This document shows positions 16,055 to 43,577 of a stretch of 48,837 nt of DNA, one piece after another. Source of the DNA: Nanobdellota archaeon (GTDB lineage: Archaea > Nanobdellota > Nanobdellia > Parvarchaeales > Parvarchaeaceae). Both the position numbers and the translations under genes were made by a program. How positions within the stretch are numbered: position 1 is the first letter of the stretch; the number at the start of each line of letters is the position of its first letter. Under the pieces are notes generated by a model that saw only the letters and a list, made by a program, of their open reading frames with translations, did no database searches and was not told the DNA's origin. The stretch lies in NCBI GenBank assembly GCA_021818905.1, contig JAKASS010000008.1, positions 1-48,837 on the forward strand, read 5' to 3'.

Positions 16055-16819
16055 TTGTCCCCCAAAAAGCACGGCTACGATGTCACGATGCGGGACACGA
16101 AAAGCCTGCAGCTTTACTTCGAGAGGAAGAGAGTAAAGGCCTCAAGGGAGACCATACGCAGGACGTTATTTGGTATGGGCGGACACTACGTCAAAGCCGT
16201 CCACGAGTACGCCGAAGCCGATCTTAAGAAACAGCTCGCATTCGCCAAAAGGACGCTTAAAACGCTAAGATCGATGGACAAGGATACGATTGCGCTTTTC
16301 GAGGACGAGATGTCCGCGGGCGGATCATTAAGGAAAGGATACGGATGGACTTTCGACGATAGGCTTGTGATCAAGGCTCCAGCTTACCACATGAAGAGGA
16401 CTAACGTCTTCGGGACCGTCTCCCCTCTCACTGGAGAGATCGTACAGTCCTCCTTCGCAAGCGCCAAGACTCCAGCTTTCATGGAGTTCCTCAGGAGGAT
16501 AGCAGATGCGTTTTCAGGAAAGAAGATAGTGCTGTACATGGACAACTTCCGCGTGCATAGTCCGGAGAAGACAAGGCGCTTCCTAAAGCTGCATCCCGAC
16601 CTCAAAGTAAGGTTCTTTCCCCCTTATTCTCCCCGGCTCAATCCCCAGGAATATTGGTGGAACTATCTCCGCAGGAAGCTGCTTAACAACCGCTTTTTCA
16701 GATCCGCAAGGCAAATGGCTTTTGTGATGGGGCGGTTTGTCAAGTCCGTATATTCGGAAGAAGTGATGGGCGTGTGCTCTTTGAATCCCCTCAGAAAGAT
16801 ATTAAAGGACGGAGTGTAG
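16055..16819 (+). pseudogene. IS630-family transposase, N-terminal HTH region missing
   Basis: DDE motifs FEDEMSAGG / LYMDNFRVHSP / PPYSPRLNPQEYWWNYLRRKL; starts at the point where the HTH region should precede. TIRs not found. Confidence 0.75.
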
Positions 16820-16925
16820 GATCACTTTCGAGGATCGCTATAATTAGTTAACTTTATAAATGACAGTTATCATAGTTAAGTATGATCCCTGGTGATCCTA
16901 CGGGGTCGCCAGTGTAATTTTTATT

Positions 16926-17516
16926 ATGGACGATACAGCAGTCCTTATAGAAGCTCATTACCTAGATTTGATTTCTAAAGAATTGGGTTTAAACGGAGAC
17001 AAACGAATAGACATTAAGAATTTAGCCGTAAATATGGCTAAGGAAAACAATTTATGGTGTAAAGAGGTCTTTTTCTATACCTGCCCGCCCTTCCAAAGTT
17101 CAAAGCCAACAGTGGATGAATCGAGCAGAAAGGCAAAATACGACAAATTTAAAGACAGGCTTCAAAAAAGGAATATAAATGTAAGAGAGGGCCGTTTACA
17201 GAAACTAAAAATACTTAGGGACGGGAAGCCAGCAGAAAGATTCACCGAAAAGGGCGTGGATACTCTATTTACAATTGATCTCTTAAAACTTAAGGAGAAA
17301 TACGGTATTAAAACGGCGATATTATTAACTTGTGATACCGACTTTGTACCTGTAATAAAAGCGGCAAAGGAAGAAGGAACTAAAGTAATACTTTATTATT
17401 ATACTGATAATAAAAATAAAACCCACTTCTCACTTTCTTATTACTTAGCAAACGCATGCGATTCCAAAGTCTTATTGACTGAGCAACTATTAAAGCAAGC
17501 GACGTTTTCAAGCTGA
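16926..17516 (+). CDS. NYN (LabA/DUF88-like PIN-fold) domain protein
   Basis: KGVDTLFTIDLLKLKEKYGIKTAILLTCDTDFVPVIKAAKEEGTKVILYYY is the NYN signature. Confidence 0.8.
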   Translation: MDDTAVLIEAHYLDLISKELGLNGDKRIDIKNLAVNMAKENNLWCKEVFFYTCPPFQSSKPTVDESSRKAKYDKFKDRLQKRNINVREGRLQKLKILRDGKPAERFTEKGVDTLFTIDLLKLKEKYGIKTAILLTCDTDFVPVIKAAKEEGTKVILYYYTDNKNKTHFSLSYYLANACDSKVLLTEQLLKQATFSS

Positions 17517-17735: not shown

Positions 17736-18833
17736 TTAAGTCCTTATTGCTAATTTTATAGTAGACTTTACAGCCTTATTAAATTGCTTTAATTGTTCTT
17801 TTAATATTCCGAATTCGATAACCGATGAAAAGGGTAAAACCTGCAGAGCGGTAAGATTAACATGCACAAAGAAGCTATACGCGACATACAAGGTTCTTAG
17901 ACTAGGAGCGAGACGCTTTCCTATCTCTCTATTGGTCTTGGTTTCGTCAATTTTCCGTTCTGGTCCAAACTCTTCGAACCCTTCTAAGCCTTTCTCCTTC
18001 AATATTAAAAACTCATTATAATAAAGATCGTGGTATATATCTTTCTGTTTATGGTTGGTTAACTTGCGCCAGCTTAGTGCAATTGAAATGTCTTCTATTA
18101 CTTTTCTGAGTATTATATAAACCGATGTGACCTGGCCGGCTTTGATTAATTCTCTTATTAAAGGCAAAAGGCTAGAGCTTGCATTTAAAATAACTTCGGC
18201 AGGTGCAAGGAATGGCTCACCTTCGATTGTTTCTTTTTTTAGTTTTCGGACGAGCGAATTCAGCACTTTTGATGTCTCATCCAGTTCAGCGAATATTACA
18301 TTCTGATTGTACTTTAAATTCTTAAGAGCGGGTATTATCTCTCTCTTGAAGTTTTTTATACCGGATTCAGAGTACAACCATTTAGGTAGCGCATGTCTGC
18401 TTCTAAAAAGATAAAAGTATTTTACACTTATCGGTCGCTCAGAATTTACAAGCGATACAACAAAGTTCTTTATATTCTTGTAACTACTAATCTTATAACC
18501 TAAACCATATTGATTTTTGTAGATGTAGTTATCCATATAAAAAGTTATATAACGGGTTTTAGTCTTTTTCAATTTCTCTGCATCTAAAACCCAATTTAGA
18601 TAGTGCTCTATGCTAGAATTATGTTCGCTTATTATTTTTATCGCTTTTGTGTAAAAGACACCAACATTGTCGCTTTGTGCATCCGCATTGTGTATGTCCT
18701 GTAAAAAGTGACTTATCTCCAGATTTGGAAAATCTACAAATATCCTTCTGCTCTTAAGACGAAAATATTTTCCTTTCAAATTTCCGCTTCTTACATACAC
18801 ACCAAATACCGGCCATCGCTCTTTTTTAGGCAT
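17736..18833 (-). CDS. hypothetical protein
   Basis: 365-aa ORF; segment GQVTSVYIILRKVIEDI resembles HEPN/DUF4145-type helices (weak). Confidence 0.6.
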   Translation of the reverse strand: MPKKERWPVFGVYVRSGNLKGKYFRLKSRRIFVDFPNLEISHFLQDIHNADAQSDNVGVFYTKAIKIISEHNSSIEHYLNWVLDAEKLKKTKTRYITFYMDNYIYKNQYGLGYKISSYKNIKNFVVSLVNSERPISVKYFYLFRSRHALPKWLYSESGIKNFKREIIPALKNLKYNQNVIFAELDETSKVLNSLVRKLKKETIEGEPFLAPAEVILNASSSLLPLIRELIKAGQVTSVYIILRKVIEDISIALSWRKLTNHKQKDIYHDLYYNEFLILKEKGLEGFEEFGPERKIDETKTNREIGKRLAPSLRTLYVAYSFFVHVNLTALQVLPFSSVIEFGILKEQLKQFNKAVKSTIKLAIRT

Positions 18834-18942: not shown

Positions 18943-19455
18943 TTGAAGTGGAGGAAAGCCGAAGTCGAAGGGAAAAGGGGCTTTCAAGATGCTAGAAGAA
19001 GACGAGGATTACTAAGCAACAAAGCGACTCTCAATTCTAAACTGCTTGAGCCTGATCCCGTAGCTGTGATAAAGGGCGAGAGCATGGGAAACGCCAAGGT
19101 AAATCTGATAGCCGTAAAAGAGGACGGCCATAGATACGGCTTCTTTACCAATATAGGGGCTGGTTTAGACGACGACAAAATGGCGATGGCTATAGCAGAC
19201 TTCTATTCTCGGCGTTGGCAGATTGAGACGGGCTATAGAGTAAAGAAGTATGCGTTCAGAGGCAAGACTACATCGAGAAAATACATAATACAATATATTT
19301 ATTTCATGCTTTCTATTGTACTGTATAACTTTTGGATCCTAATAAATGGCTTGCTTATTTTTGAGCTAAATTTAAAGAGTGATAAACCGATTCTTTCAGC
19401 TAAAGTATTCGATGCGCTTCTTTACAAAACAAGGGCGTTAGAAGACGTTACCTGA
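18943..19455 (+). pseudogene. C-terminal fragment of ISH3-like transposase (truncated copy of 27608-29182)
   Basis: From NKATLNSKLLEPDPVAVIKGESMGNA onward near-identical to the C-terminus of the 524-aa transposase; upstream part unrelated. Confidence 0.85.
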
Positions 19456-19640
19456 CGTCTAGATTAAAATTTTTTGAATCGTTCTAGTCATACTTAGATC
19501 AGAAACCTAAAAATTTACTCTCTTCACTGATTTTTCCTTGGCTTGATTTAAATTTTACTTAGGATCGGTTTTAAAACTGATGAATTTATCAATATAAAAT
19601 AAGTCGATTTAGGATCTGTTTTGCACTTTTGTCTCTACTG
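19015..19640 (+). repeat. ~626-bp direct repeat, left copy (transposase 3' end plus 3' flank)
   Basis: Aligns at constant offset 9727 with 28742-29367. Confidence 0.9.
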
Positions 19641-19813
19641 GTATACCAGTTGAGCGCAAAGTCAAATTATGCCAATGAACTCTATAAACTCTAAGTCCTA
19701 AGTGATTATAAGCGTTCTGTGAAGATTAATCGCCAGAATTTCCATTTAATCGTTTTTCAAAAACGCCAATGACAATCCACCTTTAATCCCGCTTTGACCA
19801 TTACTTATTGTAG

Positions 19814-20674
19814 ATGAAAAAATACAGTGAAGCGATAAAACTAGAAGCAAGAAAGCTTGTAAGATCTGGACTTACCAGAAGAGAAACGGGAAGACAGCTC
19901 GGTTTAGACGACAGATTAATCTGCATATGGTGCGCGGATATACCTGCGACAAAAGGCAAGGCTTTCTCTAGAGAATTAGTAGAAAAGGCTAAGTCGTTGG
20001 TATTATCTGGCAAATCTAAGCGCATTGTCGCAAAAGAAATAGGCGTTTCATACGAATGGATAAAATACCATACGAAAGGAGTCGAATCAAGAAAGACAAT
20101 ACCAAAAGAAACCGAAGACAAGACGAAGCAATTAGTAGCATCGGGAATCCAAAAGAAAGAAGTCGCAAAAATGCTAGGCTTGAGTTATCAATGGGTAAAG
20201 CGACATACGAACCCAAGCTACCACTTCACGCAATATCCTCAAAAACTCAAGGAAAGCGTTCAAAGGTTGGGAGAACAAGGATTTAATGCGCCATTTATAG
20301 AGCGGGCTTTCGGTTTAAAGTCGCGCACTGCGCGGACCTGGTTAGGTTACAAGAACAAGCGGAAATACCTAATTATCGGCGGAAGATCGCTGGCAATCTT
20401 ACAGAAACTTATGGAAAGGCACTGGTTTATACCAAAAGGACGGCAAATGGATGCGTGCAGGATACTTTCAAGACAACTGCCTATAAAGATTGTAAGATAC
20501 AACCAAAAGAAGAGAATCTGCCTGCTGCCAGGAAACGAGAATGAGGCGATTGCTGCATTTGTAGCCAGATACTACAACAATCGCCTCGGATCGAGAAGAT
20601 TGAAGAGAATACTGGTTAAATTTGGTGTAATCTACACTAATCGAAAGCTTATAAAGAAGGTGTATTCAATATAA
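19814..20674 (+). CDS. protein with four tandem HTH-like units and unknown C-terminal domain
   Basis: Four ~42-aa units: KYSEAIKLEARKLVRSGLTRRETGRQLGLDDRLICIW / AFSRELVEKAKSLVLSGKSKRIVAKEIGVSYEWIKYH / TIPKETEDKTKQLVASGIQKKEVAKMLGLSYQWVKRH / QYPQKLKESVQRLGEQGFNAPFIERAFGLKSRTARTW. Confidence 0.75.
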   Translation: MKKYSEAIKLEARKLVRSGLTRRETGRQLGLDDRLICIWCADIPATKGKAFSRELVEKAKSLVLSGKSKRIVAKEIGVSYEWIKYHTKGVESRKTIPKETEDKTKQLVASGIQKKEVAKMLGLSYQWVKRHTNPSYHFTQYPQKLKESVQRLGEQGFNAPFIERAFGLKSRTARTWLGYKNKRKYLIIGGRSLAILQKLMERHWFIPKGRQMDACRILSRQLPIKIVRYNQKKRICLLPGNENEAIAAFVARYYNNRLGSRRLKRILVKFGVIYTNRKLIKKVYSI

Positions 20675-20678
20675 AGCA

Positions 20679-20915
20679 ATGGAAGAGAAACAGTACAAAG
20701 GGCTGGATAAGAAGCTAGATACAATAATAAAATTATTGGCACTTCAAGCCGTTGGTAGCAAGGCAAAAGCAAATGAGGCCATATCCGCGCTTTCTAGGTT
20801 TGGTCTTCAGCCAAAGGACATAGCGGAAATTCTAGGTACTACAGCTAATTCTGTACGTGTCGCATTAAGCACAACGCGAAATAAGAAGGTGAAGAGAGAT
20901 GCCAAAGAAGAATAA
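20679..20915 (+). CDS. small sigma70-r4-like HTH protein
   Basis: KKLDTIIKLLALQAV...FGLQPKDIAEILGTTANSVRVALS. Confidence 0.75.
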   Translation: MEEKQYKGLDKKLDTIIKLLALQAVGSKAKANEAISALSRFGLQPKDIAEILGTTANSVRVALSTTRNKKVKRDAKEE

Positions 20916-21075
20916 AACTCCAGAAGAGCACTTACAGACTATAGAATATTTACTAGCGGGATTATTACTTAAAAGAGAAACTGATGTAAATAAGGTCGCT
21001 AGAATTATTGGTTGTAACAGCAAAACCTTAGTCGAAATGTTCCCTGAAAAAAGACGTTCTAAAAATGGAAAATAA
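20899..21075 (+). CDS. small HTH protein (58 aa, not in ORF track)
   Basis: ATG 20899; MPKKNKTPEEHLQTIEYLLAGLLLKRETDVNKVARIIGCNSKTLVEMFPEKRRSKNGK*; overlaps both neighbours. Confidence 0.65.
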   Translation: MPKKNKTPEEHLQTIEYLLAGLLLKRETDVNKVARIIGCNSKTLVEMFPEKRRSKNGK

Positions 21076-21235
21076 CAAATCTGATGACATTCTAAGGGAG
21101 TTAAGAGCAATCAAGAAATTGCTAGCCGTTCAATTATATGTGTCTGGTGTTCTCCCCGAAGACATATCTAAGATTATTGGATTGGATGCAGGCACAATAA
21201 GGAATTTTGTAAAGAAGGGAAAAACTAAAAAATAG
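21065..21235 (+). CDS. small HTH protein (56 aa, not in ORF track)
   Basis: ATG 21065; MENNKSDDILRELRAIKKLLAVQLYVSGVLPEDISKIIGLDAGTIRNFVKKGKTKK*; overlaps both neighbours. Confidence 0.7.
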   Translation: MENNKSDDILRELRAIKKLLAVQLYVSGVLPEDISKIIGLDAGTIRNFVKKGKTKK

Positions 21236-21954
21236 TGCAGTTTATGGCCAAGCTCAATCCCGAGATTTTATCTATAATAGAGCGAAAAACTGGGAAAAAA
21301 GAAAACAGCATAAGACATGACATCTCTATTATGAGGAGAACAAACGCAAAACTTCCACTAAATGTAGTAGCCCATTTATATGCGCTTAAAAATGGCTTTT
21401 CGGTATTACAAAAACTTGCTCCCGCGGAAAAAGCCGTAGTGCCGAATACCGAGTTTGAAAAACCGCTTAGATTAGTAAAGACGCAAAGACGTGCTGATAA
21501 AAAAAGAGTTATAGAGTTCATAAAATATGCTACTTCAAATGTCTTCTTGTCAGACCACATAGTCGAGATAAATAGAGCTTATACCGCAAGATGCTATACA
21601 GCGACTTTTATCTTATGCAGAAAAATCATAGAAAATCTCCTTATAGAAGAAATATTAAAGAGAAAGTTTCCTCAAAAAGATAAGGCTACAAAAGAACTTT
21701 ACTATGACTTTAGTCAAAACCGGAATAAAGATTTAAAATATATATTGGATAACTTAAAGAAACACGCCCAAGATTTTGGTACAGATAAGGCACTTGTAGA
21801 GAAAATCGTCCATGACTCTAAAGCATTCAAAGACGACGCGAATGACAAAGCCCATTCATTGTATCATCTAGTTAAAAGTCCAAAGGAACTTGATGACGCT
21901 AATGTACAAGGTATAATCGACATGATATCTCAACTTAAAAATAATATTCCTTAA
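21235..21954 (+). CDS. hypothetical protein, possible HEPN/DUF4145-like C-terminal helices
   Basis: Start (GTG 21235 or ATG 21244) at the TAGTG overlap with the previous stop; AYTARCYTATFILCRKIIENLLIEEIL helix. Confidence 0.65.
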   Translation: MQFMAKLNPEILSIIERKTGKKENSIRHDISIMRRTNAKLPLNVVAHLYALKNGFSVLQKLAPAEKAVVPNTEFEKPLRLVKTQRRADKKRVIEFIKYATSNVFLSDHIVEINRAYTARCYTATFILCRKIIENLLIEEILKRKFPQKDKATKELYYDFSQNRNKDLKYILDNLKKHAQDFGTDKALVEKIVHDSKAFKDDANDKAHSLYHLVKSPKELDDANVQGIIDMISQLKNNIP

Positions 21955-21963
21955 GATAAGACT

Positions 21964-23271
21964 ATGTCGTTAGAAGGTAACTCAAAAATTTGGTTCGAAC
22001 AAATTATAGACACGATAAATAAGGAGAAGGAATTCTTAGGTAAGGCGCGTGTTGGATTTGTAATCTTGAAAGATGAAAAAGCGCAGCCCAAGTTGCATTA
22101 CTTATGGGGCACTTTTTTAAAGAAAGGAGAATCAATCCCAACAGAACAAAGTTGGGAGTATAAGAACATAGCATTAAAAGAAAAATATTTAGTCCTATCT
22201 GAATTTCTGGATTTTATAAAAGATTTATTTGTGGAGGATAAATTTAAGCTTCTTGGTTTTGATTTCAAAATAAAGTTGAACTTCCAACAACCATTAAAAT
22301 TATACAGTAATTGGAATTATGCGAATATCATTACTGAGTACCCCTCGCTACATTGTTATGAACGTATTGAAGGTAATGCGCTTCCATTCAACTGGGAAAC
22401 AGTTGTAGGCGCGGATGCTCTTCCTGCTTTTCCTAATGTGAATGAGGCGATTTTTACCTTCATGCGTTTTCCAGTCAAAGACGGTCTTTATCAGTCATTA
22501 GAAGCGGCAGTCCAAATTCTTATACCAGATTACAGGGCCAAGATAGAAAAAGTAAGATTAATGGAAGATAAAGTAGAACTATGTATAAAAGCTCCCTTTA
22601 TATCTGAGAAGGATTTAATTTTGAAAGCTTATTACAAAACAGAAAATGAGAGAGTGAATCTCTCTACAAAAATTAAGAAAGGAAACGCATCGATTGCGCT
22701 CAAAGGTTCATTCTCGTTATTGGAGTTATATCTTATCTCCAAGAAAGGAGAATTAATCGATAAGAAAACCATAAACTCGCAATTTTTTACTAATGATAAA
22801 AGTATAGAAATCGAATATTCAAAAGAAACTATTGAAAACCTGGTAAAAGCAAAAGAGAACCAGACTATAGAAAAGAAGCGTGAGATTGGAGAAACGGAAA
22901 AAAGTCAACTAGAATTCCTTGAAAGCGTAACGGCTTTTTCGAACTCGGAAGGCGGCGTTATTATAATCGGAGTGGACAACCGAGGGAATGTAGTAGGGCT
23001 TTATAATATAGAAAAAGAAAAACAGAGAATAATAAGTTTAATCGGCAAGAAATGTGAACCAAAAGTAGATTTTGAAATAAAAGAGGCTAAAATCGATAGT
23101 AAAAATCTGCTTTTAGTTACTATCATTGCGGGGAACAATAAACCGTATTTCTTGAATGAAAAAGGTTTTCTTCTAAGAGATAACGACACGGATAGATTAA
23201 TAAAAAGAGCTGAAATGGATGAAATATTCAACGACAAACAGAAGATAAATCAAAATCCATACCTTGCATGA
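21964..23271 (+). CDS. AlbA_2/Schlafen-like ATP-binding-domain protein with long unique N-terminus
   Basis: C-terminal KSQLEFLESVTAFSNSEGGVIIIGVDNRGNVVGL...KPYFLNEKGFLLRDNDTDRLIKRAEMDEIF. Confidence 0.8.
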   Translation: MSLEGNSKIWFEQIIDTINKEKEFLGKARVGFVILKDEKAQPKLHYLWGTFLKKGESIPTEQSWEYKNIALKEKYLVLSEFLDFIKDLFVEDKFKLLGFDFKIKLNFQQPLKLYSNWNYANIITEYPSLHCYERIEGNALPFNWETVVGADALPAFPNVNEAIFTFMRFPVKDGLYQSLEAAVQILIPDYRAKIEKVRLMEDKVELCIKAPFISEKDLILKAYYKTENERVNLSTKIKKGNASIALKGSFSLLELYLISKKGELIDKKTINSQFFTNDKSIEIEYSKETIENLVKAKENQTIEKKREIGETEKSQLEFLESVTAFSNSEGGVIIIGVDNRGNVVGLYNIEKEKQRIISLIGKKCEPKVDFEIKEAKIDSKNLLLVTIIAGNNKPYFLNEKGFLLRDNDTDRLIKRAEMDEIFNDKQKINQNPYLA

Positions 23272-23292: not shown

Positions 23293-26157
23293 TTATAATA
23301 AAGTCAATAGACTAGATTGTTCATCACCATTGTCACTTATGGTAAGATTCTTTCGCGATTTTTTATGTTTTCCATTTCTATTTACGGAATTCGCTTTTGT
23401 ATATCTGTCTTTAACTAATTCTTTCAAAGAGGAATAAATCTCTTGTCTTTCAGTTTTAGAAAGTCCCAAAATATCGAATATAATATTATCTAAATTTTGG
23501 TGATCCTTCATTTCGATTTCTTTTTCGACTGGTAATATTTCTCTCTTAGACAATCGTAGAAATGCTTTTTCTAAGTCGATTTTTTGGGCTTTTGTAAGTT
23601 TTGCTATATCTAATACTGGCATAGCTTTCCAGTCCGGTCCATATATAGTCAAAACGCCTTCGCCAAGATTTACTCTGCCGTATAACTCCTTTGTTAACGC
23701 GAAAATGCTAGAGTTTAGGTATGCCACTAATAATAACGGGGATATGTCATTCTTTGGGGTAAATCCAAAAAATGTGTCTTCTATTTGTACTGCGTCTTTA
23801 TTGTATACAGCAAAATGTCGATCTCCATAAAATCGTGTGATAATTATTTTTGGTGCCTCTTGCAGTCCTACATCATACCACTGTTTACTACTGCTTTTCC
23901 CGCTACCTTTTACGGAGGTTACTTTGTTTATGCCTTTTATCTCCCCCATATTTATATATGATAAAGCTTTTGTGCCGCGCATCTTTATTTTTTCCAGTTT
24001 TGAGCTAAATAGAACGTTCTCCAACTCCTTTTCTCTCAGTATTGTTTTCTTTAATTCTTTTGTAGAGTGTAGGATGGGTTCCAAGAATTTTGTTTCTATA
24101 CCGAATTTTCCTGCGCTACTTCTTTTTAGCACGAAAAAATGGGTCGCACCGGTTTTTATGCCATATTTTGGTTCTGCTATTGAAGTTAGCGGTTTTAATT
24201 TATCTGTTTTATTCATTATTTTGAAGTATATGTCTGGTGCTCTTAGGTATATATTCCATTTGCCCCCTTTCCAGTCCTCCTTTCCACGTTCATTTATTTC
24301 TCTCCCTTTATCGTAAAGTTCTTTTTGGCCGATAGTTACCGCTCTAAATTCGGTGTTTTCAGTAAACGATTCGGTTTTATCAATTTCGCTAGCTAATTTT
24401 TTAAGATCACTGTAATCTTGTAGTTTCTTTTTAAGTAGCACGAATCTTACATTATTTTTAGCACGCTTCTCTTCATCATCCTCCTGCTCTGCAATTATTA
24501 TACAAGTATTTATTGAGGCATCTTCGAACCAGCGTTCTACCTTAGATTCTAATATGGTCTTTATTCTAAAATTTTGTAAAAGCATTTTCTGTATTTCTTC
24601 GCCGTATTCTGCATCCATCCACGAATTAGATACGATAAACCCTAAGCGCCCTCTTTGCTTCAGAAAACTTGGTGCGTGCAGCAAAAAATACGTGTATATA
24701 CTTGCACGCTTCCCAATCGAATATTTATCGCCCCAATCCTCACTAATTACTGAGTGAAGCTTATCTTTATATTTTTCGGAGTATTCTCCTAATTCTTCTT
24801 GTCTTGTATACGGGGGATTTGCCACGATTGTATCAAATTTTGGTATGTTCATAACTTGCACCTTGCCTCGTATGTCTTTACCAGAAAATGGCAGTAACAC
24901 ATGAAGGCGCGGCTGTAAATTAAAAAAATCGTTCACTAAAACGTTTACTTTATTTGTAAGTTCTTTGAGGTTTCTTATTGTAAGATTAATAACGCTCAAA
25001 TGGGCGGCAAATTGGTTTATATCCGTTCCATATATTTGGGACAGTAATTCCTTATGTTTTTTATTCTTGTTTTTATTTAGCATGTTATAATATGCTCTTA
25101 CTAAAAAAGTGCCGGATCCGCATGCTGGATCGAGTATTAAATCATCAGCGCTCTTTATACAGAATCCCTCTATTAAATCTACTACGTCGGGGGGGGTGTA
25201 ATATTGACCAAGATAATGTCTTTCTTGTATTGGAATTAGCGATTCAAAAACTTTACCTATGACATCATATTCGATTTCGGATAGTTTATAGCGTTCAAGT
25301 TCTGAGATGAACTGATTGAATAATACTATAGCCTCTTTTGTTATTGGTATTCTATCGAAAAAGGTCGATGAGAAAACGGCTTCGTAATCTATTTTTAATG
25401 CGGCCCTAAAACGGTTGTTTAGTTCTTCTTTGAATATTTTATCATTATCGGTATCTATTTTATTTAGTTTTGGCAGTTTAGGAAAATTGCCCTCTAATAG
25501 TTTATAGAAGAACATTTTATTTGATAGAAGATGAGAGTACTGCTTAACGATCTTTTCATTCGTTTCTTCATCTAGTGTAAATTCCTGTTCAAAAAGCCAT
25601 TCCGCGTATTCCTTTTTGAATAACCTATCCTTTTTGATTTGCTCATCCAATCCATCCAGAATAGCCGGCCACAAAATCTCATAAAATGTTTTCAATCTCT
25701 TCACGAACTTCTCATCGATGCTGAGGAATTTAAGTTTGTCTTGTCTAAGAAGCTCTAAATCAGCAAATATTTGTTTTAACGTTATGTCGATTGGTGTTGT
25801 CGCATCGTAGTGCAATAACTGCCTGTCAAGTAATGGCGTCCCTTCTTGAAACGTTTTCCATAAAACATAGTGTTGTAAATTTGAAGTGACAAAATAATTT
25901 ACGCCTAAGCCATTAGCATAATTAGCAGCCTGCTCAACGACTTCGGGGTAGTAAGGGTCGTGTATAGGAGAACCGTCCGGCTGTTTTAATTCTATAACTA
26001 AATCCGGCTTTCCGGCTTTATCATATAGAACTATATCGGCACTTTTTCGACCGACCGGTACTTCTTGCTCCGCCTTTGAAAAATAGGTTCCTCCAGATTC
26101 TATTATAGATTTTATCCGATGCAATAAGTCGCCCATCAACAATCTTTCTCTTGGCAT
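23293..26157 (-). CDS. Type IIG-like restriction-modification enzyme (N-terminal PD-(D/E)XK nuclease plus N6-adenine MTase)
   Basis: ADIVLYDKAGKPDLVIELKQ nuclease motif; DLILDPACGSGTFLVRAYY (motif I) and TIVANPPYTRQEEL (motif IV NPPY). Confidence 0.88.
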   Translation of the reverse strand: MPRERLLMGDLLHRIKSIIESGGTYFSKAEQEVPVGRKSADIVLYDKAGKPDLVIELKQPDGSPIHDPYYPEVVEQAANYANGLGVNYFVTSNLQHYVLWKTFQEGTPLLDRQLLHYDATTPIDITLKQIFADLELLRQDKLKFLSIDEKFVKRLKTFYEILWPAILDGLDEQIKKDRLFKKEYAEWLFEQEFTLDEETNEKIVKQYSHLLSNKMFFYKLLEGNFPKLPKLNKIDTDNDKIFKEELNNRFRAALKIDYEAVFSSTFFDRIPITKEAIVLFNQFISELERYKLSEIEYDVIGKVFESLIPIQERHYLGQYYTPPDVVDLIEGFCIKSADDLILDPACGSGTFLVRAYYNMLNKNKNKKHKELLSQIYGTDINQFAAHLSVINLTIRNLKELTNKVNVLVNDFFNLQPRLHVLLPFSGKDIRGKVQVMNIPKFDTIVANPPYTRQEELGEYSEKYKDKLHSVISEDWGDKYSIGKRASIYTYFLLHAPSFLKQRGRLGFIVSNSWMDAEYGEEIQKMLLQNFRIKTILESKVERWFEDASINTCIIIAEQEDDEEKRAKNNVRFVLLKKKLQDYSDLKKLASEIDKTESFTENTEFRAVTIGQKELYDKGREINERGKEDWKGGKWNIYLRAPDIYFKIMNKTDKLKPLTSIAEPKYGIKTGATHFFVLKRSSAGKFGIETKFLEPILHSTKELKKTILREKELENVLFSSKLEKIKMRGTKALSYINMGEIKGINKVTSVKGSGKSSSKQWYDVGLQEAPKIIITRFYGDRHFAVYNKDAVQIEDTFFGFTPKNDISPLLLVAYLNSSIFALTKELYGRVNLGEGVLTIYGPDWKAMPVLDIAKLTKAQKIDLEKAFLRLSKREILPVEKEIEMKDHQNLDNIIFDILGLSKTERQEIYSSLKELVKDRYTKANSVNRNGKHKKSRKNLTISDNGDEQSSLLTLL

Positions 26158-26218: not shown

Positions 26219-27391
26219 TTAAGATATGCCTAATTTTTGTTTTAATGCTGCGATTTTTTCGGCATTTTTGTATAATTCTAATAATTCGCTATACGACAAA
26301 AATTTATAGCGTTCTTTCACCTCTCTGTATGGTGCCTTATTTACTTCAATTTGAAACTTAGTTCTCTTGTCATCGGGAGCAACAATTACGAAACTGGAGT
26401 AAAACTGTTTTAGCTGATAAAGGCGTAATAAGCCGCGACTTACATCGGTAGTGTTTTCAACCTCTATGCAAACTTTCGGCGCGTCATCATAGCTAAACCA
26501 GATTATATCAATTTCTCTAACAGACTTTTTATCTCGCTCTCCGATAGAGTCTGGGATAGTGTCTAATAAGACGATTTCACCAAGTTTTGTGCCTTCAAAG
26601 TCTTTAGACGGATCAGCGGTATAAGTTTTATATCCCAACAGGTTTCCCAATCGTATCAGATAATATTCCGCGCCCTCGTGTGTGGATATTTTATTTTCTA
26701 TAGATACGATTGCAGATGGTTCGGTTATTCTTTGTTGAGGTACAAGTTTACTGTGGACCATATTCTTAAAGATATACCAAAACAAACAATCGAGATCAAT
26801 GAAATTCGGATTTTCGAATCCAAAATTGCTTAATTGATTTTTTATTATTGTCAATACGTTTAAAACTTGTAGATATTCTTTTCCAGTGCTAATATTATAT
26901 TTTAGGAATTTATCAGGCAAAATTTTAATACCGAGATAAGGCAAAACGGCCCTTGGCGTTGCATTCCACAAACAATATTTTTCAGGAAATACGAAATTTA
27001 ATATCTCAGAAATTGAAGATGCTCCAAAACCCTTTATTTTATTACAAAAAGTATCATATCGATGATCTATACTCTCTTCTCCGTATAACAAATCTTTTAG
27101 GGCTTCTTTTACATTCTCTAGACCATTAGGTTTCAATAATTTGTTATCGATATACCAATCTTTATTCCCCCAGATATTGCTTGCCCATAAAAATTTCCAC
27201 ATGTCCCTGAAGGTATTTTCATTTAGTCCGTCTATGTTCTCTTTAGATAGCCTTTGACTTAGGAATTCTGCATGATCCTTGTGATCTTTTAAATTTTCTT
27301 GCCATTCGCTCGAATTTGTTTTTAATTCAACTTTGTATCTATCTGAGAAGGAACCAATTTCTTTTATCTGTGAGTCGGTAAGATTTTCCAT
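26219..27391 (-). CDS. putative PD-(D/E)XK restriction endonuclease-like protein
   Basis: C-terminal VREIDIIWFSYDDAPKVCIEVENTTDVSRGLLRLYQLKQF; N-terminal IKGFGASSISEILNFVFPEKYCLWN typical of restriction-associated proteins; adjacent to the IIG gene on the same strand. Confidence 0.65.
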   Translation of the reverse strand: MENLTDSQIKEIGSFSDRYKVELKTNSSEWQENLKDHKDHAEFLSQRLSKENIDGLNENTFRDMWKFLWASNIWGNKDWYIDNKLLKPNGLENVKEALKDLLYGEESIDHRYDTFCNKIKGFGASSISEILNFVFPEKYCLWNATPRAVLPYLGIKILPDKFLKYNISTGKEYLQVLNVLTIIKNQLSNFGFENPNFIDLDCLFWYIFKNMVHSKLVPQQRITEPSAIVSIENKISTHEGAEYYLIRLGNLLGYKTYTADPSKDFEGTKLGEIVLLDTIPDSIGERDKKSVREIDIIWFSYDDAPKVCIEVENTTDVSRGLLRLYQLKQFYSSFVIVAPDDKRTKFQIEVNKAPYREVKERYKFLSYSELLELYKNAEKIAALKQKLGIS

Positions 27392-27528
27392 TATTTTGAT
27401 CTTAATGCATCTTCAATTTTTTTGAAAATTTCTTCTAGACTAGTATCATAAACTGTTATACTCTTACTTTTGTTGCTTTTTCTATCACGAACGGTAATTA
27501 TTATCGCTTTCGGTTTTGCAGTTAACAT
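27391..27528 (-). CDS. small protein (45 aa) coupled to the nuclease gene
   Basis: MLTAKPKAIIITVRDRKSNKSKSITVYDTSLEEIFKKIEDALRSK*; stop adjacent to downstream ATG (TAATGG); not in ORF track. Confidence 0.6.
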   Translation of the reverse strand: MLTAKPKAIIITVRDRKSNKSKSITVYDTSLEEIFKKIEDALRSK

Positions 27529-27540
27529 ACTATTTAATAG

Positions 27541-27554
27541 AATAGTTAACTATT
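27541..27554. promoter_or_regulatory. perfect 14-bp palindrome, candidate operator
   Basis: AATAGTTAACTATT is self-complementary; core TAGTTAACTA recurs at 27588-27597. Confidence 0.5.
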
Positions 27555-27607
27555 AATAGTTATAAGTTAATTATATTATTAACAAAATAGTTAACTAAAA
27601 CTAACTT

Positions 27608-29182
27608 ATGTTAATAAAAACGGCCCGCAAAAGCAAGAAAATTGCTACTAATATTTACAAAGCTATTGAGCTTAATCCAAAACGGTTGTCAGAAATTTTA
27701 CATTGTCTAACTTTGGACGACACAATAAGAAAACGCTACGAGTTCTCTAAAGACGCCTTACTTAAAGTGCTAGTACTTGGCAGACTCAAGGGGATAAAAT
27801 TTGACGCAAAAATAATCGACTATCTAAAAACGCATCCAGACGAAGCTTTGGACTTAGGTTTTTACAGGGATGAAAATACTGGTGTAAAGATACCAGATAG
27901 GCGTACACTTGGTCTGTTTAGAAAGAACCTTACTAAAGAAGAATCGGCTTTGGTGGATTTTACGACGAAGACCGTAGAAGACGCACTTTACACGAAAGGC
28001 AAGTTTTTGGATCTTGGACTTGTAAGACAAGAGCCAGAAAAAGAGAATATTAGTAAGTCTACTATTTATAAGACTACGCAGGATAAAACAAGAGAGTTGA
28101 GTAGGGTGATAAAGAAGACCTTGCTCAAGCAACTTAAAGACCATACAAAATACAATTCTATATACAAAGACGAGGAATTCCTTGACCTGCTTATACACAT
28201 ATCTCTTTCACAGGATTTCGCGAAAGAGGGCTCAAAAGTGCTTAGGACTTTGAAGGAGTCTAAGGTGCCTGTCGGCGCTACTTTGTTCTATTACCTGAAG
28301 AAGTACAGTTTAGAGGAAGTCTCAGATGTGTTTACAAGGATATTTGACATGACTTTCTCTATGGCCGAGAAGTCTGGCCTTTTATCTAGAAGGACTAAGC
28401 ATACGGTGGCTATAGACTGTCATGAATGGTTCTATTACGGCAAGCAGATAGAAGGCGGCTTTATAGTCGGCAAGAAACCTGAAAGAGGGACGTTAAGATG
28501 CTTTAAATTCATCACACTGGACATAGTCGACAAAGAATGCAGGTTCACGCTGCTCGCCTTGCCCGTAATAAAATCTAAAGACGAGCAAGTCACGCAGATA
28601 GACCTTGTGAAACGCTTGATAGAAAGGGCTTTGAGCAAGATAAAGATATGGCGAGTCCTTATGGATAGAGGATTCCTTGGTGCCGATATCATAAACTTCC
28701 TTAAATCTAAAGGCTTAGAGTTCATAATCCCTTCTAAATCGAGCAACAAAGCGACTATCAATTCTAAACTGCTTGAGCCTGATCCTGTAGCTGTGATAAA
28801 GGGCGAAAGCATGGGCAATGCCAGAGTAAATCTGATAGTCGTTAAAGAAGGCGGTCATAGATACGGTTTCTTTACCAATATAGAAGCTGGTTTAGACGAC
28901 GACAAAATGGCGATGGCTATAGCAGATTTCTATTCTAGACGTTGGCAGATAGAGACGGGCTATCGCGTAAAGAAGTATGCGTTCAGAGGCAAGACTACAT
29001 CGAGAAAATACATTATAAGATATATTTATTTCATGCTTTCTATTGTACTGTATAACTTTTGGATCCTAATAAATGGCTTGCTTATTTTTGAGCTAAATTT
29101 AAAGAGTGATAAACCGATTCTTTCAGCTAAAGTATTCGATGCGCTTCTTTACAAAACAAGGGCGTTAGAAGACGTTACCTGA
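27608..29182 (+). CDS. ISH3-like DDE transposase (full length)
   Basis: TVAIDCHEWFYYGK, VLMDRGFLGADII and FYSRRWQIETGYRVKKYAFRGKT catalytic regions. Confidence 0.88.
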   Translation: MLIKTARKSKKIATNIYKAIELNPKRLSEILHCLTLDDTIRKRYEFSKDALLKVLVLGRLKGIKFDAKIIDYLKTHPDEALDLGFYRDENTGVKIPDRRTLGLFRKNLTKEESALVDFTTKTVEDALYTKGKFLDLGLVRQEPEKENISKSTIYKTTQDKTRELSRVIKKTLLKQLKDHTKYNSIYKDEEFLDLLIHISLSQDFAKEGSKVLRTLKESKVPVGATLFYYLKKYSLEEVSDVFTRIFDMTFSMAEKSGLLSRRTKHTVAIDCHEWFYYGKQIEGGFIVGKKPERGTLRCFKFITLDIVDKECRFTLLALPVIKSKDEQVTQIDLVKRLIERALSKIKIWRVLMDRGFLGADIINFLKSKGLEFIIPSKSSNKATINSKLLEPDPVAVIKGESMGNARVNLIVVKEGGHRYGFFTNIEAGLDDDKMAMAIADFYSRRWQIETGYRVKKYAFRGKTTSRKYIIRYIYFMLSIVLYNFWILINGLLIFELNLKSDKPILSAKVFDALLYKTRALEDVT

Positions 29183-29367
29183 CGTCTAGATTAAAATTTT
29201 TTGAATCGTTCTAGTCATACTTAGATCAGAAACCTAAAAATTTACTCTCTTCACTGATTTTTCCTTGGCTTGATTTAAATTTTACTTAGGATCGGTTTTA
29301 AAACTGATGAATTTATCAATATAAAATAAGTCGATTTAGGATCTGTTTTGCACTTTTGTCTCTACTG
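28742..29367 (+). repeat. ~626-bp direct repeat, right copy
   Basis: Aligns with 19015-19640, including ~185 bp of noncoding DNA after the transposase stop. Confidence 0.9.
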
Positions 29368-39223: not shown

Positions 39224-40492
39224 ATGGAAATAAAGAACTATCTCGTGGATAAAAAACTGGACATAGATTCGTTGTACGTAAAGGCCCGCGGACTAAAATT
39301 AGAGCCGACCATAAATTTTATCACCTCTATCATAGGGCCGAGGCGGGCAGGGAAGACTTACCTTATATATGAATTTATAAAAGAAAAACGGCTTAAACCG
39401 GAAGATTATCTGTTCATCGACTTTGAAGACGAAGACACCATAAGTTTTAGACGAGAAGACCTGCTAAGATCGCCATACTTATCCAAAGAGACCTACGGCA
39501 AAGAACCAGATTACTTATTTTTCGACGAGATCCAGAACTTGAAAGAATGGGAACGTTTGGTCTATACACTGTATGAGAAAAAAAGATACAAGATAGTGAT
39601 CACGGGCTCATCATCTAAATTGCTGAGCAAGGAAATAGCGACTTCATTGCGCGGTCGGGCTTTACCATTGACAGTCTTGCCGCTTTCTTTTGTGGAGGTC
39701 CTAAAGGCGAAGAACGTGACCCTATCACCGCCACTATCAAGCGAAAAGACCAGTAGTATAAAATATGAGCTGTCAAACTATCTAGTCAATGGCGGGTTTC
39801 CTGACATAGTGTTTGACAACGCAAAAGCCACCCAGTTCTTCAGGCAATATCTAGATCTAGTGATCTTTAAGGACTTGACGGAACGGTTCGGCATAAGAAA
39901 TATCTCCGTCGTAAAGTTGCTCATGAATTCTATATTATCCGCGTCCGGGAAAGAATTCTCGATAAGCAAACAATACAAGACACTAAGAAGCATGGGAATG
40001 AACGTCAGCCAGAAGACCGTATATTCATATGCGCAATTATTCGAAGATTCGTTTTTCTGTTTTTTCATCCCAAGGTTTTCGACCTCATTGAGAAAATCGT
40101 CTTTATCCGTCAAAAAAGTATATCTGAACGACAATGGCTTCGCAAACATTTCGGGCGACAAAGAACGTGGAAGGCAGATGGAAAATGCGGTTTTTCTGGA
40201 ATTGCTAAGAAGAAAAGACAATTACGATATTTTTTACTGGAAAGACTATCAGCAGAGAGAAGTAGATTTCGTAATGAGCACAAACGGCAAATCCCTCGGC
40301 CTTATACAGGTGACTTACGCCAGCCATAAGGAAGAATTGGGACAGAGGGAGCGCTCTTCGCTGCTTGTCGCATCAGAAGAACTGCATTGCAATAATCTTC
40401 TGATTATAACCTGGGACTACGAAGCGGAGGAGAAGATCAAAGGCAAGAAGATAAGGTTCGTTCCCTTGTGGAAGTGGCTCCTTGACGTTTGA
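39224..40492 (+). CDS. AAA_14/DUF4143 archaeal ATPase, paralogue 1
   Basis: GPRRAGKTYLI Walker A, DYLFFDEIQNLKEWERLV Walker B, ITGSSSKLLSKEIATSLRGR, C-terminal EVDFVMSTNGKSLGLIQVTYAS. Confidence 0.92.
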   Translation: MEIKNYLVDKKLDIDSLYVKARGLKLEPTINFITSIIGPRRAGKTYLIYEFIKEKRLKPEDYLFIDFEDEDTISFRREDLLRSPYLSKETYGKEPDYLFFDEIQNLKEWERLVYTLYEKKRYKIVITGSSSKLLSKEIATSLRGRALPLTVLPLSFVEVLKAKNVTLSPPLSSEKTSSIKYELSNYLVNGGFPDIVFDNAKATQFFRQYLDLVIFKDLTERFGIRNISVVKLLMNSILSASGKEFSISKQYKTLRSMGMNVSQKTVYSYAQLFEDSFFCFFIPRFSTSLRKSSLSVKKVYLNDNGFANISGDKERGRQMENAVFLELLRRKDNYDIFYWKDYQQREVDFVMSTNGKSLGLIQVTYASHKEELGQRERSSLLVASEELHCNNLLIITWDYEAEEKIKGKKIRFVPLWKWLLDV

Positions 40493-40537
40493 ACGCCGGG
40501 ATAAAGACGGCCGCACGGTCTAGCAGTCCTCGGCTTC
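40406..40537 (+). repeat. conserved ATPase 3'-end plus 3'-flank module, copy 1
   Basis: ATAACCTGGGACTACGAAGC...TTTGAACGCCGGGATAAAGACGG...TCCTCGGCTTC. Confidence 0.85.
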
Positions 40538-40630
40538 AAACGCCCGATCATTCACGTTTCCTACAAGAAACATTAAAAAAGAGATTTTCAAGAAGAAGGC
40601 GTGTTAAATCCGTAGGGGTACATAAAATAT

Positions 40631-40659
40631 AAATAGTTTCCCCCTTTAAGAAACTATTT
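40631..40659. promoter_or_regulatory. perfect 9-bp inverted repeat upstream of ATPase 2
   Basis: AAATAGTTT-CCCCCTTTAAG-AAACTATTT, overlapping an AAATATAAATAG TATA-like stretch. Confidence 0.5.
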
Positions 40660-40674
40660 AAAAGAATCGGCCCT

Positions 40675-41973
40675 TTGTATATTATGGAACGTAAGGCAAT
40701 CGAACGGTATCTTATAAATAAGAAAGAGGAGATAAGGTCGCTTACGGTGAAAGAGAGACTGACATCTTTTGAAGTTTCGAAGCAATTTGTAACCGTCATA
40801 GTCGGCGCTAGAAGAACTGGCAAGACGTATGGGGTGCTAGACTTTTTGTTAAATAAATTAAGATTAAAGGATCCCGATTTTTTGTACTTGAACTTGGAAG
40901 ACGTAGATCTCGATGGAATTACGAATAAAGACATATCTGATACCGTAAATGTACACCAGCAGATATACGGGGTGCCGCCTTCGATCATATACGTGGACGA
41001 GCCACAAGTAGTACAAGATTGGGAAAAGGCGATTTATTCTCTTCACGAAAAGAAGTCCTTTAAGATAATAATAACTGGCTCTTCGTCAAAGCTTTTAAGC
41101 AAGGAAATCGCCTCGGCTTTAAGAGGTAGAACATTGACTTATTCTGTCTATCCACTATCATTTAAAGAATACTTATCCTTTAAAGGAGTTACTCCTAAAG
41201 AAGGGGGGCCGTTGCCTAGTTCTATAAAAAATAAGATAATGTATGAGTTATCAGCGTATCTTGCCACCGGGAGTCTCCCAGACATCGTCATAAACCCATC
41301 GATTTCGTCCAAATTCTATAATGATTATATCGATTTGATAATCTTTAGGGATATAGTCGAAAGATTTGGAATAAAAAACATAGGTATAATACGGTTTGTA
41401 ATAAAATCGCTGATAACTTCCTTTTCGAAGCAAGCGTCGATACATAGTATGTATAAAGCTTTGAAAGGCAATGGACAGAAAATAAGCAAAAAAACATTGT
41501 ATTCTTACGTTTTCTTATTAGAAGATGCATACTTTTCTTTTCAGTTAAAGAAATTCAACTTTTCAAATAAGAAATCCGAACTGAGCATATCGAAGACTTA
41601 CTTGAATGATTGGGGAGTCGCGTCTATGATGTTAGATCTTAAAACGGAAATCGGAAGGACGATGGAAAATGCAGTCTTTATAGAATTAAAACGTAGACAA
41701 ACGCAGAATGATAAACTTTATTATAGTGATATTGGTGACGAGATAGATTTCGTTAAAGTAGAAAAAAATAAAGTTTCAGATCTTATACAAGTCACTTACG
41801 CGTCGAATAAGAACGAAATAAAAGAGAGGGAGATAGAAAATTTATTAAGCGGGTCCATAAAACTTAACTGCAACGATCTCCTCGTGATAACCTGGGACTA
41901 CGAAGCCGAGGAAAAAGTAAAAGGCAAGAAGATAAGGTTCGTCCCCTTGTGGAAATGGCTCCTCGACGTTTGA
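40675..41973 (+). CDS. AAA_14/DUF4143 archaeal ATPase, paralogue 2
   Basis: GARRTGKTYGVLDF, IIYVDEPQVVQDWEKAI, ITGSSSKLLSKEIASALRGR, EIDFVKVEKNKVSDLIQVTYAS. Confidence 0.92.
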   Translation: MYIMERKAIERYLINKKEEIRSLTVKERLTSFEVSKQFVTVIVGARRTGKTYGVLDFLLNKLRLKDPDFLYLNLEDVDLDGITNKDISDTVNVHQQIYGVPPSIIYVDEPQVVQDWEKAIYSLHEKKSFKIIITGSSSKLLSKEIASALRGRTLTYSVYPLSFKEYLSFKGVTPKEGGPLPSSIKNKIMYELSAYLATGSLPDIVINPSISSKFYNDYIDLIIFRDIVERFGIKNIGIIRFVIKSLITSFSKQASIHSMYKALKGNGQKISKKTLYSYVFLLEDAYFSFQLKKFNFSNKKSELSISKTYLNDWGVASMMLDLKTEIGRTMENAVFIELKRRQTQNDKLYYSDIGDEIDFVKVEKNKVSDLIQVTYASNKNEIKEREIENLLSGSIKLNCNDLLVITWDYEAEEKVKGKKIRFVPLWKWLLDV

Positions 41974-42045
41974 ACGTCGGGATAAGGACGGACGCGCGAT
42001 CTAGCGGTCCCCGGCTTCTCGGCATCCTCTTCATAAGGCATCTGT
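41887..42045 (+). repeat. conserved ATPase 3'-end plus 3'-flank module, copy 2
   Basis: ATAACCTGGGACTACGAAGC...TTTGAACGTCGGGATAAGGACGGACGCGCGATCTAGCGGTCCCCGGCTTCTCGGCATCCTCTTCATAA. Confidence 0.9.
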
Positions 42046-42234
42046 ACTTCCCTCCGCCAGTCGACTATCGTCTTTCTCATGGATATCAGGTCCTTGAATA
42101 AGACTGCGTCCAGGCAGCTGCCTTCTAGCTTCGTTTATTATTGCCTTGTCCATTTCTCGTATATTCTGAAATCCTTTAAGTTCTACACGGCTTCCGCCTT
42201 CTATTGAAAGGTTTACGTCCTGCCGCCCATGCAT
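42031..42234 (-). pseudogene. fragment of archaeal Glu-tRNA(Gln) amidotransferase GatE/GatB-type subunit
   Basis: GRQDVNLSIEGGSRVELKGFQNIREMDKAIINEARRQL matches the RQDvNvSIeGGaRVEiKGvQdl signature; rest of gene absent. Confidence 0.7.
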
Positions 42235-42308
42235 TGTGGAGGTCTAGATTTTGTTAATCTCTACCTTATAAAGGAAGCTTTTTATATAAAGACGATCATA
42301 ACGTTTCT

Positions 42309-43577
42309 ATGGTCTCGATCTTCGATTTAAAGTCCGCCATCGCCGAAAAAGAAGCGGAACTTAGATTAAAATTTAAGAGTGAGAATATAATCGGACGGGA
42401 ATTGATCTCGAGGGTCAAAAATCCGAGACGGGATTTCGCTACGATAATAACCGGTCCGAGGCGAAGCGGCAAATCCATATTCGCGTTTCAATTGGCAAAA
42501 AACGAGAATTTTGGTTACGTTAACTTCGATGACGAAAGACTGAGAATCCCAGCAAAAGACTTAAATAGAGTTTTGGAAGCGCTATATGTCCTAAAGGGCG
42601 ATATAAATTTATTCATATTCGATGAGATACAGAACATAGACGGCTGGGAACCATTCGTTTCCAGACTTTTGGGCTCAAAGAGAATAATCCTAACGGGCAG
42701 CAATGCAAAGATCATGAGTAAAGAACTGGCTACACGACTTACCGGCAGACATTTAGATTATGAATTATTCCCTTTTAGTTTTAGAGAATTTCTTAGATTC
42801 AAATCACATAAAACGGACGAACCTAGCATTTATTTAACGCAAGAAAGGGCGAATTTAGTGGAATTAACAGAAAAATATATAATAAACGGCGGGTTTCCTC
42901 TTGCCGTAAGAGAAGGGAAAATCGTATTGGTAGAGCTGTACAAGGACATAATAGAAAAGGACGTTGTACAGCGATACAAAATAAACATGAGGACAAAATT
43001 GGCAGAGGTTTCGAGATATCTTATATCAAACGCTTCTTCAGAGATAACATACGCTAAACTAAAAAATATATTTGAGATAAGAGGACAGCACACGATCCAA
43101 GACTGGATAACTTATCTCGAAAAGGCATACCTGCTGTTTAAAGTAGAACGGTTCTCCTTTAAATTGAAAGAAGCAATAATAGCCCCCAAAAAGATCTATT
43201 GCATAGATACGGGCATCATAGGTATGATCTCCCCTCGGCATAGCATGAGTAGACTGATGGAAAATGTCGTCGCCATAGATTTAATAAGGAAAAAAGCTTA
43301 TTCGGGCGTCGAAATAAATTATTGGAAAAATCATACGCAGAAAGAAGTCGATTTTGTTTTGAGAAACGGCAATAAAGTGCTTTCGTTGATACAAGTTACT
43401 TACGCCTCTAGCAAAATAGACGTTAAAGACAGAGAAATAAACAATCTTCTTGCTGCTTCAAAAGAGCTCCACTGCAACGATCTCCTCGTCATAACGTGGG
43501 ACTACGAAGCCGAGGAGAAGATCAAAGGCAAGAAGATAAGGTTCGTCCCTTTGTGGAAATGGCTCCTCGACGTTTGA
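42309..43577 (+). CDS. AAA_14/DUF4143 archaeal ATPase, paralogue 3
   Basis: GPRRSGKSIFAFQL, LFIFDEIQNIDGWEPFV, LTGSNAKIMSKELATRLTGR, EVDFVLRNGNKVLSLIQVTYAS. Confidence 0.92.
   Translation: MVSIFDLKSAIAEKEAELRLKFKSENIIGRELISRVKNPRRDFATIITGPRRSGKSIFAFQLAKNENFGYVNFDDERLRIPAKDLNRVLEALYVLKGDINLFIFDEIQNIDGWEPFVSRLLGSKRIILTGSNAKIMSKELATRLTGRHLDYELFPFSFREFLRFKSHKTDEPSIYLTQERANLVELTEKYIINGGFPLAVREGKIVLVELYKDIIEKDVVQRYKINMRTKLAEVSRYLISNASSEITYAKLKNIFEIRGQHTIQDWITYLEKAYLLFKVERFSFKLKEAIIAPKKIYCIDTGIIGMISPRHSMSRLMENVVAIDLIRKKAYSGVEINYWKNHTQKEVDFVLRNGNKVLSLIQVTYASSKIDVKDREINNLLAASKELHCNDLLVITWDYEAEEKIKGKKIRFVPLWKWLLDV

Follow-up and report, generated by a model that had tools for sequence, protein, structure and literature searches.

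What function is served by three short helix-turn-helix (HTH) genes that overlap one another and run directly into genes for a HEPN-type and an AlbA_2-type protein? These genes lie in the window, by which we mean the whole stretch of 48,837 nucleotides that was analysed, a contig of a 0.94-Mb genome that is archaeal, judging by its RadA-type recombinase and by the archaeal RPA of its class-mates. A first-pass annotation had proposed them as a candidate five-gene system of a kind it did not recognise. The answer towards which we lean is that arrays of such mini-HTH genes, together with their effectors, constitute a modular conflict system serving defence or addiction. The features on which the discussion rests are as follows.

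19814–20674, + strand: 286-aa multi-HTH ORF, ending 4 bp upstream of mini-HTH 1.
20679–20915, + strand: mini-HTH 1 (78 aa), in one class with G068_3, G301_2, G214_1 and G308_2.
20899–21075, + strand: mini-HTH 2 (58 aa), of the 'MPKKNK..TIEYLLAG' class with G148_6, G212_4 and G308_4.
21065–21235, + strand: mini-HTH 3 (56 aa), in one class with G155_3 and G308_1.
21244–21954, + strand: P239, the putative terminal effector (236 aa from ATG 21244, 239 aa from GTG 21235), with orthologues in G069, G155, G303, G462 and a viral contig.
21244–21441, + strand: N-terminal domain of P239 (roughly residues 1–66), made of three helices and AROD-like by remote similarity.
21526–21945, + strand: C-terminal domain of P239, putatively HEPN (DUF4145-like), with the motif K-x3-N-x3-H.
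21964–23271, + strand: 435-aa protein, a probable extra effector of this locus, with about 290 unique N-terminal residues and an SLFN_AlbA_2 domain at 22855–23199.
23293–26157, − strand: convergent type IIG restriction-methyltransferase (PADLOC REase_MTase_IIG, 4e-65), context.
26219–27391, − strand: type II REase-like protein (PADLOC REase_II, 6e-9), context.
27390–29261, + strand: insertion sequence (IS) copy with a complete transposase, a repeated element at the right border of the island; a truncated copy lies at 18943–19455.

From mini-HTH 1 to the AlbA_2 gene, the successive junctions measure −17, −11, +8 and +9 bp. The earlier claim that every junction overlaps is thus right for mini-HTH 1/2 (17 bp) and mini-HTH 2/3 (11 bp), and wrong for the last two, where gaps of 8 bp (mini-HTH 3 to P239) and 9 bp (P239 to the AlbA_2 gene) are found; the alignment of homologues places the start of P239 at ATG 21244. 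The 286-aa ORF upstream was considered as a part of the module and rejected, being multi-copy and confined to the genus. The island is flanked by two IS copies of one transposase family, and its DNA (19.87–27.39 kb) has no match in 18 genomes of the same genus, unlike the flanking genes.

Several other elements of the window deserve mention in their own right. IS copies, full or truncated, occur at 16055–16845, 18943–19868 and 27390–29261, with about 80–88% identity across the genome. Near the island, an NYN-domain RNase-like protein (16926–17516, + strand) has a weak PADLOC HEC-09 match, and a 365-aa protein (17736–18833, − strand) has no significant Pfam match, its middle part weakly matching the P239 HEPN profile (E=5e-4). 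Farther away, at 39224–43577 (+ strand), three successive AAA+-like ATPase paralogues (422, 432 and 422 aa) have diverged in sequence and share an almost identical C-terminal end (...ITWDYEAEEKIKGKKIRFVPLWKWLLDV), which suggests that gene conversion has occurred or that selection acts on this end.

Does the arrangement recur? The survey covered the phylum of the window together with viral, plasmid and phage collections; bacteria and the other archaeal phyla were covered only by a single genome-contig scan, which gave one locus. Two full-length relatives of P239 were found in 236 genomes, both directly behind mini-HTH genes, and a mini-HTH profile search led to further tandem arrays. Most genome-wide matches of this profile looked like HTH segments within larger proteins and were left out of account, and its PDB matches to designed repeat proteins were judged artefacts of simple helices. 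In total, 14 chromosomal loci were collected from 13 genomes in ten families of the phylum (the window, G068, G069 with two loci, G130, G148, G155, G212, G214, G301, G303, G308, G432 and G462), plus one contig of an archaeal tailed virus; the linkage thus recurs widely in other genomes, the outcome that the proposal of a new system had asked to see. The number of mini-HTH genes per locus ranges from one to six; winged-HTH genes often accompany them, and a larger gene comes last. One of the G069 loci has a single mini-HTH. In G069 (L008, 9649–10548), the P241 gene is followed by three more small genes of winged-HTH-like type, and that array may continue downstream of its effector. The profile found no array in 14 other genomes of the window's genus.

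The genes are packed more tightly than chance would allow. Across the 14 loci, 68 of 69 junctions are at most 10 bp, the sole exception being the gap between the Mod gene and the array of G155; 53 overlap and 15 lie at 0–10 bp, with starts taken as far upstream as possible, so that some overlaps may be overstated. The abundance of HTH proteins and the use of MAG data could invite the suspicion that these are housekeeping regulators or chance neighbours. We find this hardly credible, given that gene order, coupling and effector class recur, that the arrays are absent from relatives in the same genus, and that a virus exchanges the whole cassette, as described below.

The small proteins themselves are real, as had been claimed for the ORFs of 78, 58 and 56 aa. 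Their best matches in foreign genomes lie far above those of shuffled sequence (W_1/G068 33 SD, W_2/G148 39 SD, W_3/G308 23 SD), and nine small-protein pairs, with dN of 0.09–0.29 and dS saturated, are under strong purifying selection. Conservation, junction packing and purifying selection together led us to reject chance ORFs. The N-terminal helix followed by an HTH is common to all three proteins of the window, as first described, and the HTH resembles Sigma70_r4/HTH_23 (Sigma70_r4_2, E=3.6e-4 for mini-HTH 1). The small proteins are basic (median pI 9.7), and the amphipathicity of the N-terminal helix (0.40 vs 0.35 shuffled) is only slightly in excess.

Among the small proteins of the 12 loci compared, 52 of 54 have their nearest relative at another locus. 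They therefore belong to old, distinct classes that have been variously combined, and recent tandem duplication was rejected on the same count; the divergence noticed at the outset among the three paralogues of the window is of this old kind. By eye there are about 14 classes, a soft number, since several of them fall together when reciprocal best hits are linked with a loose cut-off. The recurrent ones include 'TANxVxVxLxxxR', to which mini-HTH 1 of the window belongs, 'GWKRK', aligned from seven loci, 'LNKTPGNIAVII', 'GTLKTWDHK' and the winged HTH 'KGTQLDVLKLCDL'. Old and distinct paralogues are what a heteromer would predict, and the coupled translation of different HTH proteins before one effector suggests a stoichiometric complex; the mini-HTHs may well form such heteromers and bind DNA.

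While the upstream theme is constant, the terminal gene varies. It begins with an AROD-like or winged-HTH domain and usually ends in a HEPN or SLFN_AlbA_2 domain, one or the other being present at 13 of the 14 chromosomal loci; the HEPN domains are of P239/DUF4145-like, Swt1-like or Ymh-like type, and the P239 type is the commonest.

P239 type (AROD-like + HEPN): window, G069, G155, G303, G462.
AROD-like + Swt1-HEPN: G148, G212.
Winged HTH + Swt1-HEPN: G301, G308, G432.
Ymh-HEPN: G130.
Winged HTH + AlbA_2: G214, second locus of G069.
Unclassified, 290 aa: G068.

The terminal proteins of G148 and G212 share 117 of 248 residues (Pfam Swt1 6e-8 and 6e-3). HEPN_Swt1 matches of the terminal genes reach 6e-8, 5e-5 and 1e-4, and the Ymh match 2e-5; for PF18731 (Swt1-like), G148 scores 33.4 bits against a cut-off of 27.5, with G301 and G308 just under it. 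The RNxxxH motif is kept in the Swt1-like proteins, and the HEPN motifs of the terminal genes read RNLIAH, RNCLAH, RNSIGH, RNAVGH and RNAIGH. The C-terminal AlbA_2 domain reported for the 435-aa protein is borne out by PF04326 (E=3e-23; 82.8 bits vs a gathering score of 25.3), and those of G214 and the second G069 locus match at 3e-19 and 2e-19. All three share ENQxxExK, which we take to be catalytic. The first 289 residues of the window protein have no relative in the 236 genomes. An AlbA_2 gene placed after a P239 gene occurs in the window alone, and AlbA_2 as a conserved partner of P239 was rejected for this reason. The conserved unit is accordingly not the five-gene one first proposed; it is the array plus its effector, AlbA_2 and HEPN being alternative terminal effectors and the AlbA_2 gene of the window a local extra.

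What does P239 look like? In an AlphaFold model based on five orthologues (pLDDT 85), three helices make up the N-terminal domain, from which a loose linker leads to a C-terminal domain that is likewise helical. For the N-terminus, the AROD of Pyrococcus Rpa1 came first in a PDB profile search (6.5e-4; next unrelated match 0.13) and at the top of a fold search by probability (Foldseek 0.98–1.00, but E>=1), and hhalign against the AROD of the phylum's own RPAs gave 93% vs 5% for the control. Positions 88–142 of DUF2240 match both the P239 N-terminus and AROD. Applied to this genome, the RPA AROD profile misses P239 and recovers no RPA, archaeal RPA having been found in the genome's class-mates, and a TrmB regulator scores about equally with the P239 N-terminal profile. 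The kinship to the AROD of archaeal RPA is thus remote, and in P239 the domain is fused to HEPN rather than to an OB fold. The Rpa1 AROD binds OB folds (PMC10122647), and an AROD-like domain here would suggest the sensing of an ssDNA-binding protein.

The part of P239 that had been recognised as HEPN/DUF4145-like is probably of this kind. It matches HEPN-like domains that are fused to GHKL-type proteins (5e-24), with DUF4145 matches under the cut-off (E=0.018 for the G155 member, 0.0038 for the viral orthologue) and with HepT, SO_3166, RnlA and AbiA as Foldseek neighbours (E>0.7). The nearest such domain belongs to a GHKL-type ATPase on L102 (G288:C60, match 23394–23834, E=5e-24, motif RNEINPKAH), possibly another conflict protein. 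In the five aligned members of P239 the motif is K-x3-N-x3-H, with K or D at the canonical R, rather than the catalytic Rx4-6H, which makes catalysis doubtful, and the subfamily may be one that binds RNA and does not cut it. In the G155 member an R stands six positions ahead of the H. Such a motif, together with an AROD similarity found by sequence, structure and profile comparison, would suit a protein that acts on replication, its AROD-like domain binding RPA OB folds and its HEPN domain serving as a scaffold or as a non-catalytic part that binds RNA or DNA, so that the replication of an invader is hindered and the host is not killed. We consider this quite unlikely: the similarity is remote only, and other loci have a winged HTH in place of AROD and an intact RNxxxH, so that it could not be the general mechanism.

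The neighbourhood offers further clues. Restriction-modification (R-M) genes adjoin 6 of the 14 chromosomal loci. In G155 the order is an EcoP15I-like type III Mod, four mini-HTHs, P236 and a 989-aa Res overlapping by 4 bp, which is helicase-like by inspection and has no PDB match. HsdM and an HsdS-like gene precede four mini-HTHs, P251 and a convergent HsdR in G212, an order that resembles the hsdM-hsdS-prrC-hsdR of EcoprrI. In G148 an N4/N6 methyltransferase and a CfrBI endonuclease are followed by six mini-HTHs and P251; a divergent Mrr endonuclease adjoins the array of G214, and a Dcm-type methyltransferase overlaps the mini-HTH of the second G069 locus. Mobile genes are also found, a phage-type integrase adjoining the G068 locus and similar ones, by inspection, those of G301 and G303. 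Behind the P239 orthologue of G303 (L079, 4697–6129) there is an AbiE-like pair, a winged-HTH protein and a DUF6036 nucleotidyltransferase.

HEPN RNases in R-M operons (PrrC/EcoprrI, RloC, AbiJ, DUF4145, Swt1/Abi2, Ymh) have been proposed to act as a suicide back-up (PMC3710099), and some of the HEPN genes described here likewise lie inside or beside R-M genes of type I, II or III. PrrC and RloC, however, contain an ABC ATPase, while P239 and P251 have no ATPase domain, and none of these systems has been described with an array of distinct mini-HTHs or with exchanged effectors. Prokaryotic Schlafen/AlbA_2 RNases have been proposed as back-up effectors in BREX-type loci (PMC12839542); here AlbA_2 with ENQxxExK is found at three loci (the window, G214 and the second of G069), with mini-HTH genes in front and, in the window, the unique N-terminus of 290 aa. 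These proposals are among the grounds on which defence or addiction is favoured.

R-M genes next to small HTH genes also bring to mind the controller (C) proteins, such as C.Csp231I (PMC3115060), which are encoded with R-M genes. One could regard the mini-HTHs as a set of autoregulatory transcription factors and nothing else, a counterpart in several components of the C proteins or of toxin-antitoxin autorepressors, the HEPN or AlbA_2 protein being a conventional toxin that enters no complex with them. The likeness to Sigma70_r4/HTH_23, the six R-M neighbourhoods and the order of the genes, in which small basic HTHs precede a toxin-like gene in the manner of type II toxin-antitoxin operons, all fit. 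C proteins are single, however, and up to six mini-HTHs of old classes per locus go far beyond the need; furthermore, no R-M gene adjoins 8 of the 14 chromosomal loci, within the DNA read, nor is there any in the viral cassette. Pure regulation is a serious rival, and one that we hold to be somewhat unlikely.

The best evidence that array and effector are one functional, mobile unit comes from a virus. On the contig IMGVR_UViG_3300031604_000168 (L145), a winged HTH, two mini-HTHs, a winged HTH and a mini-HTH are followed by a P239 orthologue (36%, E=6e-46). A tail tube protein is also encoded there, as is a large terminase (PF03237, 1e-15). A second contig, IMGVR_UViG_3300031876_000239 (L146), is 99.3% identical to it over 14.67 kb and 93% beyond, and between the same flanks it has a cassette that is unrelated to the module and encodes a PLD-type nuclease. 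The module block (L145 14669–17220) was exchanged whole, with no other recognisable gene inside. Besides the PLD nuclease, the alternative cassette (L146 14670–17529) encodes a 198-aa protein and three small proteins, all four unknown; the left junction of the swap truncates a nucleotidyltransferase-like gene, and L147, a more distant relative, has a TIGR04255 gene in this region. The swap region is a hot-spot for the cargo of an archaeal tailed virus, the host being presumed from the cargo and the kinship of the terminal gene. Searches of viral contigs with the mini-HTH classes and with Swt1-type and AlbA_2-type effectors found nothing, and plasmid and phage records gave no carriage except a weak AlbA_2-only phage match.

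Carriage of this kind, along with the IS and integrase contexts, the patchy distribution and the toxin-type effectors, would also be expected of a module that serves mobile elements for addiction and nothing else, with the arrays as antitoxins. Type II toxin-antitoxin networks with swapped toxins are known, the combinatorial one of PMC10440598 being an example, and the likeness, one of gene order only, extends to small antitoxin-like HTHs in front, an exchangeable toxin last and mobile carriage. The difference lies in the up to six different mini-HTHs per toxin, mostly of old orthologous classes; several antitoxins per toxin would be unusual, and a position between Mod- and Res-type genes or beside HsdM-HsdS is more in keeping with a role in guarding or backing up restriction. 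Addiction alone is the other serious rival, possible though the less probable reading; as it is a sub-case of the conflict system, the two estimates overlap.

How might a conflict system of this type work? Distinct mini-HTHs, at some loci with small winged-HTH proteins, would be expressed together through translational coupling and would associate by way of their N-terminal helices, forming a heteromeric complex that probably binds DNA and that includes the N-terminal adaptor of the effector, AROD-like or winged HTH. This complex would silence the effector, tether it to DNA or the replication machinery, or both. Once disturbed by a virus, or because a partner restriction system has failed, it would free the effector, a HEPN RNase or a Schlafen-type AlbA_2 protein, to damage RNA and arrest the cell; in the window, P239 and probably the AlbA_2 protein too would play this part. 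The exchange of HEPN and AlbA_2 effectors under a constant upstream theme is characteristic of systems whose interchangeable toxins are driven by a sensor or a restraint. A bolder version, a combinatorial immune sensor in which subunits drawn from the roughly 14 interchangeable classes make up composite readers of nucleic acid, the set of subunits defining recognition, the RNase effectors are swappable and the AROD versions dock on the RPA-coated ssDNA of replicating invaders, we regard as rather unlikely.

Effectors of these kinds and their link to restriction are already known, while for the polymorphic HTH array we have seen no description. Neither the mini-HTHs nor P239 score above the curated threshold of any family in Pfam, NCBIfam, PADLOC or PHROGs, and the combination, as the first-pass annotation had supposed, has no name among these models. 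In PADLOC-DB 2.0.0 the mini-HTHs and P239 have no match, and the AlbA_2 protein has weak pAgo and AbiEi matches only; the open-access literature yielded no description of such HTH arrays.

The genes of the module are short enough to escape annotation, and yet they are conserved, mobile and coupled to toxin-type effectors. The archaea that carry them, if they are DPANN as we infer from genome size, belong to a group in which R-M and CRISPR-Cas are reportedly scarce (PMC12988326). Should the finding be confirmed, it would add a type of immunity or addiction controlled by HTH arrays, and a viral cargo locus that trades whole conflict modules, with the AROD-like domain as a testable link from archaeal RPA to a HEPN effector.
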